NCBI GenBank assembly: GCA_902779165.1 | Contig: CACZAN010000041.1 | Span: forward strand, 1 to 43,017 | DNA length: 43,017 nucleotides | Direction: 5' to 3' | From: an uncultured Bacteroidales bacterium | GTDB taxonomy: Bacteria > Bacteroidota > Bacteroidia > Bacteroidales > Bacteroidaceae | Part shown: in pieces, positions 688 through 39,443 of the stretch | Numbering within the stretch: the stretch's first letter is position 1 | How the letters are laid out: every line of letters begins with the position of its first letter | The notes under the pieces: model-generated | The model's input: the letters and a program-made list of their open reading frames with translations, nothing else | Database searches by the model: none | Told to the model about the DNA's origin: nothing | Program-made: the position numbers and the translations under genes

Positions 688-740
688 GCAGCAGTTGTGG
701 GATGAGTTGACACGCGATGGAACTATTGTTACCCTCCGAA

Positions 741-913
741 GTAAGTATAGTTCCTCGTCTCAGAGACTATCCTTTGTTGTACTCACGTCCATACATAGCG
801 GCCAGGACGTATATTGGTGAAAGACATTTCGCCCTTTCGTGGAAGTCGATATGTCCTATTGCGAAAGACGATATGTCCCGTCATGAAGGAGTCTCCATTA
901 CTTCTTAATATGC
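741..913. repeat. 22-nt-phased degenerate repeat array A
   Basis: The gap between the convergent thioredoxin-like and rsmF genes contains units that restart every 22 nt at 804, 826, 848, 870 and 892. They carry related words such as CCCTTTCGTGGAAG, CCTATTGCGAAAGAC and CCCGTCATGAAGGAG, linked by GAC-rich joins. Just upstream, 741-772 read on the minus strand closely matches 37548-37580 in array C: both contain ATAGTCTCTG, one variable base, then GACGAG. A 22-nt period excludes a coding repeat. The function is unknown. Confidence 0.6.
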
Positions 914-21422: not shown

Positions 21423-21554
21423 CACGTCCAGCCATTTCGTCCGACACGTATATACGTAAATGCTGAGATGTATTTACGTAAAAACAATTACGTCCTATCA
21501 CGAAGACTCCCACGTCCTATCACGGAGGAACCTACGTCGGTACATCGTGAAACT
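21423..21554. repeat. 22-nt-phased degenerate repeat array B (six units)
   Basis: Six consecutive units start exactly every 22 nt (21423, 21445, 21467, 21489, 21511, 21533); five begin YACGT and one GATGT. Their cores are CCATTTCGTCC, ATATACGTAAA, ATTTACGTAAA, CCTATCACGAAG, CCTATCACGGAG and CGGTACATCGTGAA. It fills the gap between the divergent TerB-like and sialidase genes, about 70 bp before the sialidase promoter. The rest of this 568-bp gap (21149-21422 and 21555-21716) holds only promoter boxes and AT-rich sequence. Confidence 0.7.
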
Positions 21555-36100: not shown

Positions 36101-37204
36101 AAAGAACTCGCTTCGACTGCCCTCGACGAACTGGCCGGATTGGATATCAGTGTCTCGGGGAATGCTGCCGATGACTTGACAACGGGACAATGGTATGTGA
36201 TGTTCGACAGAGGTGCCAATCACGGCTATCTCTACGAGAATGCCTCTTCCCACACCCTCTACAACACCGCCACAGTTCCCTCCGGCACAGCAGAGGCTAA
36301 TGCCAAATACCTCGTCCGCCTCATCGATGCAGGCGACGGCAAGTATTATATTCAGACCGGTTACGGAAACTACTTCTGGACGTTTAAGCACAGTACTAAT
36401 GTACAAGTCTCTGCATACCAATTAGAAAAAATAACTATCGCCAAAATCAACGGCACCGCCGGACACTTCTACCTACGCTCTTCAAACAATGTCATTCTCG
36501 ACGCCAACGCAATTACCAACGGCGACGCTACTGTCGTAGGCTACGGCACCTCCGTTCCAACCAGCACTGGCGGCAACAACGACTGGGCATTCTACCCTGT
36601 CACCCTAACCCGCACTGTTGCACTCAACGCCGTAGGCGACAAGAGCTATGCTACGCTGTACTTGCCATACGACGTGACGACGGATGGCGCAACGAAGGCC
36701 TACTACATCACAGAGGTGGCCGAAGGCTATGCCAGGATGACGGAAGTGACCAACCAAGAAATTCCGGCAAAGACCGCCGTGGTACTCATCAATAGCGAGA
36801 AGGCAGCAAGCACCACTCTGACCGTGGCCTGCGGACTCGCCCAACAGGTAAGCGAGAATGAGAACTTGCTGAAAGGAACGCTGACAGCGATGGAGCTCGA
36901 CCTCTCCCAGAGCTCTGCCTACTACTCGCTCGGCGTCATCGACAAGATCGGATTCTACAAGTTCAACGACGGAAACTCCACCACCATCACCCTTGGTGCC
37001 AACAAGGCGTATCTGGAATATACCGCTCCCGCAGGCGTCAAGGGCTTTGCCCTCGACTTTGGCGGCGAGGACGGCATCGAGCAAATGGTGAATCATACAT
37101 CCGCAGAACGCAAATGGTACGACCTGAACGGACGCAGACTCCTTGCCGCTCCAACAGCCAAGGGCATCTACATCATCGACGGCAAGAAGGTCGTTATCAA
37201 GTGA
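33197..37204 (+). CDS. Secreted M60-family (mucinase-type) metallopeptidase with T9SS-like tail
   Basis: The start at 33197 gives a signal peptide (MRKLTTLALLLIAGVASA) and 1335 residues; the ATG at 33140 is in a spacer copied from the previous type of gene end. An N-terminal beta-trefoil-like domain (about 20-150, SGYYRVKSYNDKYL) is followed by the peptidase region (about 220-700). The zinc motif is HEQGH (His489, Glu490, His493) with the third ligand Glu506 in GNTEISNN, fitting the M60/enhancin pattern HExxH-(8-28)-E. This family includes mucin O-glycoproteases. Two beta-trefoil-like modules (about 830-1138) and the C-terminal region (about 1140-1335, ending WYDLNGRRL...KGIYIIDGKKVVIK) are shared with the preceding protein. 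It lies 81 bp after it with no promoter between, so both are probably one operon. Confidence 0.88.
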   Translation: MRKLTTLALLLIAGVASAAIQSGYYRVKSYNDKYLTENISNHTLVCSDLRDGNYTQVWYLTVNGSNVTFQNALTERYVQSQNNASYQFTTEATPFSFTVGEDNSTYTFKNHNNGWWDGGLHSDAGLNVVFWDVTDAKSKWTVEAVEMDDAALAAQKAALTEVSTETLGYIFTTSACTELKSPYSGYSDEDLRTTLSALSMSTSLQDMAIKVKNNSWATYSGWNKTEKTFRIADYKAYSSHSRWTSILGYGHLMGRLSNPTGIWVDADQILQVYVGDIPDGESVALEVAGHGQASGTTYDLHEGMNCLLMTTSGNCFVFYEVDNTTDGDTPYQLMSNYADVTVHIEGGTVQGYFDLTKGDDDDDWTQLTTHLLSKENVCLKSDKHVMNLKKSWLLTALNGSSVVDMMNVWKNLSEWQDELTGRSDNYGGQSRYGQFCNNITSVTSVGADEQGGNPHASTYGTFYYDNYHQRIFNATNLLTVADNMWCIAHEQGHNRQDPINMVGNTEISNNLFSNVAIYKQGRYTSRTASIQDVFDDYLAGVSWPERIARSCNGVDGYNQQMLRLNWQLYLYFHVNGNDPDFFPRLYDALRTDQMTRKDVSVSAETVTGGQFTAASDDYLKYYVKCCEVSGYDLTDFFTSFGFFMIPSSESLTLNGITTTQYAFINDYDKTCLYVTNEMISAAKATVATHGYPKANITFIEDRVKAPLATYEGHAEGELRTINPDAPVASFGAVGEMGQYTDFGTPCSAYTYNISERGNVTVSGKGAVGIIVYDNSGNIVGFYNTSTFRLPASAFDENGLKSGYSIKAAAGDGTTAAATYDSSVEVNEFPKTGVWYTFRTTLRDNRYMLSNGAGEGVVGNPTATPTNAMQWQFVERDGEPETFDIINLADNSYLSPAADYDTQINTSQNKPAAGWKLKPANTAGMYIVFSGSVQLNQTNNAGTNGNKMYNWGGGGNTTDGGCQFAIEEEKELASTALDELAGLDISVSGNAADDLTTGQWYVMFDRGANHGYLYENASSHTLYNTATVPSGTAEANAKYLVRLIDAGDGKYYIQTGYGNYFWTFKHSTNVQVSAYQLEKITIAKINGTAGHFYLRSSNNVILDANAITNGDATVVGYGTSVPTSTGGNNDWAFYPVTLTRTVALNAVGDKSYATLYLPYDVTTDGATKAYYITEVAEGYARMTEVTNQEIPAKTAVVLINSEKAASTTLTVACGLAQQVSENENLLKGTLTAMELDLSQSSAYYSLGVIDKIGFYKFNDGNSTTITLGANKAYLEYTAPAGVKGFALDFGGEDGIEQMVNHTSAERKWYDLNGRRLLAAPTAKGIYIIDGKKVVIK

Positions 37205-37332: not shown

Positions 37333-37393
37333 TAAACTCTAAACTTAGAAACGGCTCTAAACTCTAAACTTAGGAACTGTTCTAAACTCTAAG
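37333..37393. repeat. 25-nt tandem repeat (2.4 copies)
   Basis: Units starting at 37333, 37358 and 37383 share TAAACTCTAAACTTAG and then vary (AAACGGCTC, GAACTGTTC). It lies between the orphan -7 box and the gpmI remnant, in what would be the 5' leader. Confidence 0.7.
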
Positions 37394-37407: not shown

Positions 37408-37569
37408 ACGGCAAAGAAAGCTCTGCTGATGATCCTCGACAGATGGGGAATGGGCAACAAAGGTAAGGACGACGTCATCCACCAGACATCGACTCCTTGT
37501 ATGGATTACCCGTCTTGGCCGCAACAAAAGGACGCAAGTGAAACAAAGTATAGTCTCTGCGACGAGTAA
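37408..37569 (+). pseudogene. gpmI: 5' remnant of a phosphoglycerate mutase gene (gpmI)
   Basis: Read in frame from 37408 the DNA encodes [20 protein letters not shown], then [14 protein letters not shown]. This matches the N-terminus of cofactor-independent phosphoglycerate mutase, normally (M)[15 protein letters not shown]...DDVI.NTPTPYMDYL. The start codon is ACG where ATG is expected, and the conserved Gly of LDGWG is Arg. Similarity stops at about residue 37 and the frame ends at a TAA at 37569, inside array C. An intact copy is presumably elsewhere in the genome. It is a dead fragment, perhaps left by recombination. Confidence 0.75.
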
Positions 37570-37939
37570 CTACTACTTCCAGCGACGAGGGACTACTACT
37601 TCCAGCGACGAGGGACTATAGTGTGACTTATCTCACGGGCGAGACAGAGACTGTCTCATCAATGAGATTGCCATGTCTCACAGGTGAGAATTCAAGAGAC
37701 ATCCAGACGTGAGGGTGAAGGTGTATATACGTAAAGGCCGAGATGTATATACGTAAAGACGAAGATGTATATACATAAAGGTCGTGACGTCCTTTCGTGG
37801 AGGACGTGACGGATTACGGCGAAAGACGTGACGGATTATGACGAAAGACGTGACGGATTACGGCGAAAGACGTGACGGATTACGGCGAAAGAGGTGACGG
37901 ATTACGGCGAAAGAGGTAATGGATTCCGAATGGATTTAA
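37561..37939. repeat. 22-nt-phased degenerate repeat array C (about 17 units)
   Basis: Units first repeat every 23-24 nt (37561, 37584, 37607), then at 22-23 nt (37631, 37654, 37676, 37698) and then every 22 nt to 37939. Word types change along the array: CTACTACTTCC; palindromes TCTCATCAATGAGA and TCTCACAGGTGAGA; TGTATATACGTAAAG; CCTTTCGTGGAGG; and finally five near-copies of GACGGATTACGGCGAAAG. One unit (37786-37807) is itself an inverted repeat, ACGTCCT and AGGACGT around 7 nt. There is no reading frame and no resemblance to a CRISPR. Confidence 0.8.
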
Positions 37940-38193
37940 TTATTTTTTTCAAAAATCCCCCGAATCCACCGATAGTGGTTTATATTTTTTCTGCTGGAAT
38001 TTGTTTCCTGAGAGGGAGAATCGGTGGATTCGGGGGATTTTTGAAAAAAAATTTTTTTTAAATCAAACGAGGCCAGGCGTACTCCTTTGTCCAACCCACG
38101 CACAGCACGAAGTTCCCATTCGGCTTCTCCCTCGCTGCTCAGGGCTTCGAGTGCCATCGCGAATCCTTCGGGGTTGTTCGTTAAATAACGCAC
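37936..38193 (-). pseudogene. Unrecognised ORF fragment lacking a normal start
   Basis: A minus-strand frame encodes RYLTNNPEGFAMALEALSSE and GEAEWELRAVRGLDKGVRL, which looks like real protein, but there is no good start: GTG at 38193 is preceded in frame by CTG ATC and then a stop five codons upstream. From about residue 44 onward the codons run through AT-rich DNA and the 31-bp inverted repeat, so the C-terminal half is probably not original. I do not recognise the family. It is best read as a piece of a lost gene cut by the palindromic element. Confidence 0.45.
37943..38050. repeat. 31-bp perfect inverted repeat (MITE-like palindrome)
   Basis: The left arm 37943-37973 and right arm 38020-38050 are perfect reverse complements, with ATCCCCCGAATCCACCGAT as the GC-rich part, separated by 46 bp. 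The element carries no gene. Target-site duplications could not be assigned with confidence because the flanks are AT-rich. It abuts array C on the left and the ORF fragment on the right. Confidence 0.8.
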
Positions 38194-38275: not shown

Positions 38276-39256
38276 TATTTCCAGTCGTCCCAGTCGACGG
38301 TGTTGGCCTTCACGCGGGCAGCCTGATTGCATTCAGGCAGACGGTGGCCGTGGCATGGCAGTTCTCGACGCTACCACCTTCATAGTTCCTGCCCACGATG
38401 CCGCCGACACAACGATAGCCTGTGATGCGCATATCGCTGACGGTGACATTCTTCACAACGCCACCATTGAATATATAACCAAAGAGGCCCAGATAGCTGT
38501 CAGCCTTGAAATCACTTCCGCCCTTGTAGATACGGATGCCGCTGACGGTATGGCCCTGACCGTCGAAGGTGCCGATGAACGGGCAGCTGCTGTTATTAAA
38601 GTAACCACCTATCGGCGTATAATTGTTCTCGGTGCTGGTGGCATCGTTCCAGGCGATGGTATGAGCGTACGTTATGTCGTCAGCCAGCACGAAGTACTTT
38701 TTCTGGAAGATATTTCCACTGTTCACGCATGCGCCAGCAGGTCAAGTCCTGCGGTGGTGGTGATGGTGTAGGCCTTCTCGGCTGAGCTTCCGTCTTTGCC
38801 TTGCGTTACGCCCCAGACGTCGGTCCACTGGGCATAGAGGTCAACGGTGGCACCGTTGGTGGCGGTGAGGTTCGAGACCTCCTCTCCGTCGGTGTATACC
38901 ACGTCGCCATCGGGCGCTGTGCTCCATCCGTCGAAGGTGTAGCCGGTGCGGGAGATGCTCTGGATGTTCTGCGCCTGGTCGTAGGTCATGGCCATGTCGG
39001 TGTAGGCATCCGTGCCGTCGTTATGATGAAGGCGCAGGGTGTAGGTGATGGGGGTGCTGGCGACATCCGGGATGGTCGCCGTCCTCGCACCGGTGCTGTA
39101 GCCAAAGCCCGAGTTGTTGGGTGTGAAGGTGAGCGTCCACCTGCTTGAGGAAGTGTTCTCCGCCGTGAATGCGTAAGTCACGGTCTTCTCCATTGCGTGT
39201 GCTGTCCCTGCGAGCGCACAGAGAAAGGCAATGATAAGGTAGAGTTTTTGTTTCAT
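38276..39256 (-). pseudogene. Frameshifted secreted InlB-repeat/GLUG surface protein
   Basis: The N-terminal frame (39256 down to about 38727) has a signal peptide (MKQKLYLIIAFLCALAGTAHA), a beta domain and an InlB/Flg_new-type repeat (SRTGYTFDGWSTAPDGDVVY...DLYAQW). It stops at LLAHA. One missing G at about 38728 would restore AHAVNSGNIF and the next frame, which carries GLUG-type motifs (GTFDGQGHTVSGIRIY, GLFGYIFNGG, GGIVGRNYEGG). That frame stops at 38310, but another frame continues NQAARVKANTVDWDDWK to a stop at 38276, implying a second shift near 38335-38350. Such proteins are Bacteroidales surface or adhesin-like proteins. Two lesions and the short length suggest a decayed gene, unless base calls are wrong. 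Confidence 0.7.
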
Positions 39257-39389: not shown

Positions 39390-39425
39390 AAAAAAAAGTC
39401 ACGCCCTCTCGGTGGAAGACGTGAC
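39390..39425 (-). terminator. pnp terminator built from a 22-nt-array unit
   Basis: On the minus strand GTCACG and CGTGAC (39425-39398) close a hairpin extended by GU and GC pairs, followed directly by eight T. It lies about 47 bp after the pnp stop. Confidence 0.8.
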
Positions 39426-39443
39426 GGATTATGGAAACGGCCT
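39398..39443. repeat. 22-nt-phased repeat, array D (two units)
   Basis: Two units, CACGCCCTCTCGGTGGAAGA and GACGGATTATGGAAACGG, match the CCTTTCGTGGAGG and GACGGATTACGGCGAAAG words of array C in the same order. They overlap the pnp terminator hairpin. Confidence 0.55.

Follow-up and report, generated by a model that had tools for sequence, protein, structure and literature searches.

Positions 37559–37931 of the window (i.e., the whole 43,017-base contig, from a genome of 3.59 Mb that is 86% complete) hold a non-coding array of changing words with a period of 22 nt, located between a peptidase-M60 gene (end at 37204) and a gene on the reverse strand (Table 1). The array and its period are real, and this observation is secure. 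Moreover, the array belongs to a class that is dense in Prevotella-like genomes, sparse in the other families of the order and nearly absent further out. We consider it fairly probable, judging from sequence patterns, that such arrays are stations of cooperative operator sites for a putative dimeric protein.

Table 1. Array units, stations and adjoining hairpin in the window.
Feature	Position	Strand	Basis
23-nt units, GCGACGAGGGACTACTACTTCCA type, A side of station, ~2.6 copies	37559..37618	+	TRF; repeat family D5; weak dyad
Three palindromic B words TCTCA-N4-TGAGA	37631-37644, 37654-37667, 37676-37689	.	Sequence and dyad centres
Three C words, ACGTATATACGT-like, spacing 22	37721-37732, 37743-37754, 37765-37776	.	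TRF and dyad centres; phase of the last B word
Single D unit, TCCTTTCGTGGAGGACGTGACG	37790..37811	+	Register
Five E units, GATTACGGCGAAAGACGTGACG, and degenerate end	37812..37931	+	TRF 37803-37925; family D1
Second window station: 22-nt register, two C words followed by D-type units	21437..21541	+	Lag scan, dyad centres
First window station: A words at ~725 and at ~747, one C word at ~812, D-type units as far as 904	721..904	+	Lag scan (800-904), dyad centres
About two isolated D/E-like units, GGTGGAAGACGTGACGGATTATGG, 1.5 kb from main array	39398..39443	+	Sequence
Perfect inverted repeat, 31-nt arms 37943-37973 / 38020-38050, abuts array	37943..38050	.	Repeat family I1

As had been predicted from the sequence, the units of the main array first measure 23 nt and later 22 nt, the latter being reported by TRF at 37718–37781 (2.9 copies) and 37803–37925 (5.6 copies). 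The predicted palindromic TCTCA-type words are there as well (at 37631, 37654 and 37676), spaced by 23 and then 22 nt, the one at 37631 having one mismatch, while CCTTTCGTGGA, which had been listed among the array words, occurs a single time in the window array. The last TCTCA-N4-TGAGA and the first ACGTATATACGT-like word are unlike in sequence and share one 22-bp phase, the dyad centres of the third B word (37682.5) and of the first ATATACGTAAA-type word (37726.5) being 44 nt (2 × 22) apart. Five dyads with at least six of seven pairs occur in the array, versus 0.77 ± 0.88 in base shuffles; in the 23-nt part, dyad symmetry is not clear-cut. Between the peptidase gene and the array, at 37333–37392, stands a separate repeat of 25 nt (TAAACTCTAAACTTAGAAACGGCTC, 2.4 copies).

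Related arrays were also expected elsewhere in the window, and a lag scan of its whole length retrieved two of the places concerned (21437–21541 and 800–904), the third one (39398–39443) amounting to only about two units. The three window stations are ~20.6 and 16.3 kb apart. The inverted repeat next to the main array is probably a separate element outside the lattice; similar hairpins adjoin the arrays in L034, L036, L038 and L049. These long hairpins, with TTTTTTTCAAAAATCCCCCGAATCCACCGAT arms, are found at the same end of the arrays, some copies with matching changes in both arms, and a second hairpin family (CACTCCGAACACTCCGAAACACTCCGA) adjoins the arrays in L041, L042, L045 and L059; both resemble families of MITE-like elements close to array ends. 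The main array and the stray units at 39398–39443 have between them a pair of overlapping reading frames on the reverse strand (38310–39256), one with a List_Bact repeat domain (PF09479), and a single station may have been split by an insertion there.

Searched with blastn against its own genome, the array gives 76 matches in ~40 places. In a sample of 38 blast-chosen places (~4 kb on each side) plus the window, 3976 positions match at lag 22, whereas no other lag between 10 and 40 exceeds 293 and shuffled sequence gives none. The original prediction had been staked on a 22-nt peak and on similar arrays elsewhere, and it withstood both checks. An exact 34-nt pattern search of the genome contigs returned 0 matches. 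The word order A, B, C, D/E is common to many own-genome arrays. In the fetched stretches, 35/40 F–C pairs and 25/28 B–C pairs are in phase (0 mod 22), as are 63/63 F–F and 156/160 C–C pairs within one word type; A words have no constant phase relative to C. The pattern GTTCCA-N4-TGGAAC occurs 128 times in the window genome, versus 11 times for the reversed pattern, and the number of sites per array has its mode at four and a tail to eleven. At L044 (3685–4095), an array with another word (ACTGGGCGGCAAGGTTGGGATG) lies beside C words in one 22-nt register. Stations are nonetheless sparse in this genome: one was found in 7 unselected 20-kb stretches, and the median interval among the listed stations is 28.7 kb. 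Lag 22 is unremarkable in 4 unselected stretches (8.6 kb), with one array each at lags 21, 22 and 23 and two each at lags 17 and 34; among 8 window-genome stretches, 5 had been picked for containing matches. With several words per lattice and longer rows, the window genome is an elaborate case.

The class was followed across relatives with a lag scan (64% match over 50 positions, lags 12 to 44, low-complexity units dropped). Genes were delimited with a custom procedure based on ORFs and hexamers. In 80 relatives fetched at PNPase (at most 10 kb on each side; 164 kb intergenic), which are mutually non-independent, lag 22 leads with 38 arrays, followed by lags 21 (18) and 23 (9), lags 42 and 44 having 13 and 28 arrays and all remaining lags at most 6. 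The best named PNPase matches are rumen Bacteroidaceae/Prevotellaceae MAGs. Before the low-complexity filter, the counts were 39 at lag 22, 20 at lag 21 and 13 at lag 14, and when coding DNA is included, lags 18 (33) and 27 (31) come close to lag 22 (36). The same-genus sample (16 stretches, 35 kb intergenic) yields 15 lag-22 and 5 lag-21 arrays, no other lag below 40 exceeding 4. Further away, other families of the order (20 stretches, 35 kb) have 1, 2 and 2 arrays at lags 21, 22 and 23 and none at any other lag, other orders and classes of the phylum (20 stretches, 76 kb) have a single one at lag 22 and none at 21 or 23, and zero arrays were called in 14 kb of E. coli. The commonest site numbers are five (16/41) and four (13/41) in the pnp sample, and four (6/12) and five (5/12) in the genus sample. 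The words are species-specific, while the 22-nt lattice is constant. A blast of the array in 60 relatives matched in one only (G003), a result that misleads unless lags are compared instead of words. Some lineages may use 21 in place of 22. In one relative, a 21-nt array (TGCGAGTTACGAAATTATCTC; L132, 12416–12598) lies directly 3' of pnp.

Dyad symmetry was assessed by column permutation (200 per array). It is significant (p < 0.05) in 27/38 lag-22 arrays of the pnp sample, 10/15 of the genus sample and 35/60 of the blast-chosen own-genome arrays. The pnp arrays at lags 21 and 23 reach this level in 7/18 and 7/9 cases, so that no significant dyad is present in 11/38 arrays at lag 22 and in 11/18 at lag 21. 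The mean dyad z in the same sample is 2.46 at lag 22, versus 1.25 for 51 control arrays of other lags, which likewise exceed their own shuffles. Neighbouring units are more alike within 5.5 nt of the dyad centre (identity 0.67) than outside (0.58; p = 6.5e-4), a difference that is absent at lag 21. For the lag-23 arrays of the window genome, 3/6 have dyads with p < 0.05, and the core/linker difference is absent too. The strict spacing of dyad centres and the conservation of words above linkers thus lend support to the phased protein-binding array proposed at the outset.

A simpler version of the pattern is found in Palleniella intestinalis, where one word, AAGGTAACNCTT, dominates (551 matches on both strands with one mismatch allowed, versus 135 for the reversed pattern); dominant words of other genomes exceed their reversed patterns as well (107 versus 1; 159 versus 3, forward strand). 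The P. intestinalis site reads RYR-AAAGGT-A-ACNYTT-YRY, with one stronger and one weaker half, and occurs in either orientation. By eye, 11/11 lag-22 arrays in 240 kb carry the dominant word, one in degenerate form, this sample being mostly match-bearing (11/12 stretches hold a listed match). Over 480 contiguous kb, lag 22 has 18 arrays and other lags at most 2, except lag 44 (8); dominant-word sites are present in 15/18 lag-22 arrays and other words in 3/18. Arrays of the 21-nt CGCGCCGCCGAAATTTTG type, without the dominant word, were seen at G061:C1:386527-386963 (L334) and at L300 (1960–2570).

Using a PWM trained on the very contig scanned, 31 arrays of at least two sites were identified in these 480 kb, 110 of their 116 sites being intergenic, along with 23 lone sites (7/23 intergenic) whose number is similar to that in shuffled DNA, in which 24 peaks, from 24 positions, are expected at the cut-off. 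Site pairs within 100 bp are offset by 22 (80 pairs), 44 (51) or 66 (26), nine other offsets occurring once each. Runs at exactly 22 bp comprise four sites in 22 cases, two in 4, three in 3 and five in 1 (lone sites: 29), and the next-unit positions beyond the runs hold a site in 0/44 cases. At the outer sites, the strong half-sites face outward (17:3 and 15:4; P = 0.00095). A weak lone copy of the dominant word stands 12 bp before a ParA-type gene (Pfam; L336 ~18669, G061:C1:458668).

The arrays of this contig are also evenly placed, at a mean distance of 15.5 kb with a CV of 0.43, versus 0.99 ± 0.18 for random placement into intergenic gaps (0/2000 trials as low as 0.43). Intervals below 6 kb are missing from four other P. 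intestinalis contigs (0 versus 6.9 expected, P = 1e-4) and from a second genome (0 versus 4.1, P = 0.005), both on listed perfect-match sites, and more weakly from the window genome (0 versus 3.5, P = 0.02), for which the site list is mixed; outside the 480-kb contig, these tests rest on listed sites or mixed lists, and G063 has too few listed perfect-match sites for such a test. This suggests that stations avoid each other.

The places of stations are not conserved between relatives, and at given loci stations come and go. In 15/28 relatives, a homologue of the gene upstream of pyrH occupies that position, and a 22-nt dyad array was found at the pyrH station position in 0/15 relatives keeping this gene pair (two have short AT-rich repeats), while four relatives have lag-22 arrays with other words near the locus. 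Around pnp, little synteny is kept among the 9 nearest relatives beyond pnp and its upstream side. As for the protein, the 20 proteins beside P. intestinalis sites that were scanned with Pfam are mostly enzymes of many kinds; no regulator beside a station was found among them, nor was the binding protein. A zinc-ribbon protein lies beside a station (L247:4124), and a weak lone site (L328:18191) has an AraC-type/methyltransferase protein next to it. HU-HIG (PF18291) is a weak lead for the binder: it has 11 matches in the window genome, of which L299, L302, L305, L311 and L314 have an array within ~1 kb, but no array is near its best copies in G061 and G062. Two of these loci (L302 and L305), both at the end of a contig, nearly duplicate each other. 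ParB has a strong match in 8/8 genomes (a single match in 6/8), and the words differ between these genomes. A plasmid search with the gene neighbouring the array returned no match.

Could the arrays be neutral minisatellites, maybe spread by MITE-like elements such as BrickBuilt, in which slippage and decay produce period and dyads as by-products? We hold this to be unlikely. The window genome does have series of near-identical units and alternating dimers (e.g., L064 and L040) that resemble minisatellites, the arrays of the window, L034, L036, L038 and L049 have long identity and a flanking hairpin in common, as if copied, the turnover of stations at given places fits, and BrickBuilt (PMC4596501) is an intergenic 23-nt array of the same order. 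However, such an origin accounts poorly for a single dominant period and a shared phase despite unrelated words, for dyad scores that exceed column permutation, for words better conserved than their linkers, for flipped words with the centre still in phase, and for the four-site peak and the even spacing. Decaying minisatellites, as initially considered, are therefore not the best single explanation, even though local unit duplication is clear and the long rows of the window genome may owe part of their length to minisatellite expansion superimposed on the lattice. A role as transcription roadblocks or read-through insulators, in which bound dimers, in the manner of phage stoperators, would halt RNA polymerase where genes end and the spacing would be secondary, also strikes us as rather improbable. 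In tandem gaps, the array is nearer to the upstream stop in 21/30 cases in the pnp sample, 3/5 in the genus sample, 19/26 in the window genome and 14/18 in P. intestinalis, and the pnp arrays are enriched in convergent gaps (0.28 of array bp versus 0.19 of intergenic bp) and depleted in divergent ones (0.13 versus 0.22). Yet this bias is modest: the convergent enrichment recurs in the genus sample, but the divergent depletion does not (0.30 versus 0.32), and hardly any bias is left in P. intestinalis, where arrays occupy 5/31 divergent, 8/36 convergent and 18/119 tandem gaps, i.e., only about one gap in six, and the spacing is left unexplained. A plain terminator, one half of the initial suggestion of a nucleoid or terminator element, is likewise not the best single explanation, while the nucleoid half is suggested by the even placement in one genome.

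Two further explanations fare worse. Tandem hairpins acting as RNA elements in untranslated RNA behind genes would agree with the many words able to form short stem-loops and with arrays near gene ends. Nevertheless, mismatched stem pairs have no G.U preference on the sense strand (GT/AC 55/46 in the pnp sample, 7/12 in the genus sample and 29/72 in the window genome), which argues for DNA dyads rather than RNA hairpins; Rfam gives 0 matches at gathering score in the window, the word itself is retained beyond mere complementarity, and the spacing is exact, all of which makes this reading very improbable. REP elements are associated with a RAYT transposase, and a REP/BIME-like spread of palindromes by such a Y1 enzyme could produce hundreds of species-specific, mainly intergenic palindromes. 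Y1_Tnp indeed has matches in G000 (3), G003 (1) and G064 (1), but 0 in G061, G062 and G063, in which words or arrays are documented, and in G065 and G066, all five of unstated completeness; moreover, linkers are not copied along with the word, and the phase is strict. The RAYT reading is largely refuted by this Y1_Tnp scan, and we give it next to no credence.

With respect to known systems, plasmid iterons, such as the 22-bp ones of R6K, are direct repeats arranged in tandem at replication origins, where a Rep gene is also present. They share with the stations the tandem rows of ~two helical turns per unit, but stations comprise hundreds of sites in either orientation, a single 480-kb contig alone having 31 arrays, and no Rep gene was found among the 20 scanned P. 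intestinalis neighbour proteins. The operators OR1–OR3 of phage lambda are adjacent pseudo-palindromes ~23–24 bp apart, with stronger and weaker halves bound by cooperative dimers, within one control region, whereas stations are chromosome-wide. A CRISPR array was rejected because the whole period of 22 nt is too short for a repeat plus a spacer. The system that most deserves re-examination as a possible relative is BrickBuilt of Porphyromonas gingivalis, which consists of intergenic arrays of a single 23-nt unit sequence (19 elements in ATCC 33277, repeat number variable between strains) and has a leader and a tail bearing terminal inverted repeats (PMC4596501). Both are intergenic tandem arrays of Bacteroidales. 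By comparison, stations mostly have a period of 22, with minorities at 21 and 23 (the window array is 23-nt only in its first 60 nt), they use many words that vary by species, and the window array, the one inspected for this, is not enclosed by an inverted repeat. The published BrickBuilt unit gives p = 0.04 to 0.22 in the dyad test, depending on arm length, and BrickBuilt may be a relative under another name.

The 13-bp matS target of MatP has 23 copies in the 800-kb Ter domain of E. coli (PMC3330122) and resembles the stations in that dispersed sites let a DNA-binding protein, only putative here, organise a stretch of chromosome; stations differ by their rows of mostly four phased sites across the 480-kb contig, with matches on other contigs, and by words that vary with the species, and they are not known to keep to a single region. 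Mycobacteriophage stoperators are numerous dispersed repressor sites in one genome too, but they are asymmetric, bound by a monomeric repressor and located on phage genomes (PMC9283540), whereas stations belong to a bacterial chromosome and consist of dyads arranged in phased rows. REP elements, finally, are extragenic palindromes of 20–40 bp in high copy number (PMC3733652), a likeness with the stations of P. intestinalis that does not extend to RAYT, which was not found there. BrickBuilt, matS, stoperators, iterons and REPs are thus the nearest described systems, none of which agrees with the stations in all the defining features tested. No description of such stations was found in the open-licence PubMed Central literature, where absence proves nothing.

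Regarding the operator reading, dyad sites whose centres are 22 bp, hence two DNA turns, apart would bring neighbouring dimers of a sequence-specific protein next to each other on the same DNA face, where they would bind cooperatively. The sites and their lattice are shown by the sequences, the binding, the dimeric state and the chromosomal task being inferred. Exact spacing, free orientation, a preferred site number and diverged linkers are all expected under this kind of binding. A typical station has four or five sites, and stations recur along the chromosome in intergenic DNA, with a slight preference for the downstream over the upstream side of genes. New sites would arise by unit duplication in multiples of 22, selection holding words and phase while linkers drift, and the dominant word or words of each species would reflect a joint rewriting of protein and sites during divergence, with the lattice retained. 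Our best guess for the function is chromosome organisation, the stations possibly acting as domain borders, loop anchors or tethers rather than in single-gene regulation: stations keep apart from one another and show no dependence on the gene next to them, which favours a task at the scale of the chromosome. On the other hand, the sparse stations of the window genome and its short-interval test of only P = 0.02 make both the operator and the architecture readings less likely. More tentatively, the arrays could represent an undescribed architecture system of Bacteroidales (mainly Prevotella-like), with a word private to the species and stations of preferred size, which in P. intestinalis would comprise four outward-closed dimer sites on a 22-bp lattice and be ~15 kb apart. 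Since this code is private and chromosome-wide, stations could also mark self versus incoming phage or plasmid DNA.

If this reading is correct, a major group of gut and rumen bacteria would possess a chromosome-wide site system whose architecture is kept while its words are not. The words would then provide bait sequences for the protein and the stations predicted positions for Hi-C, and the species would form a natural series for studying the joint change of a DNA-binding protein and its many sites.
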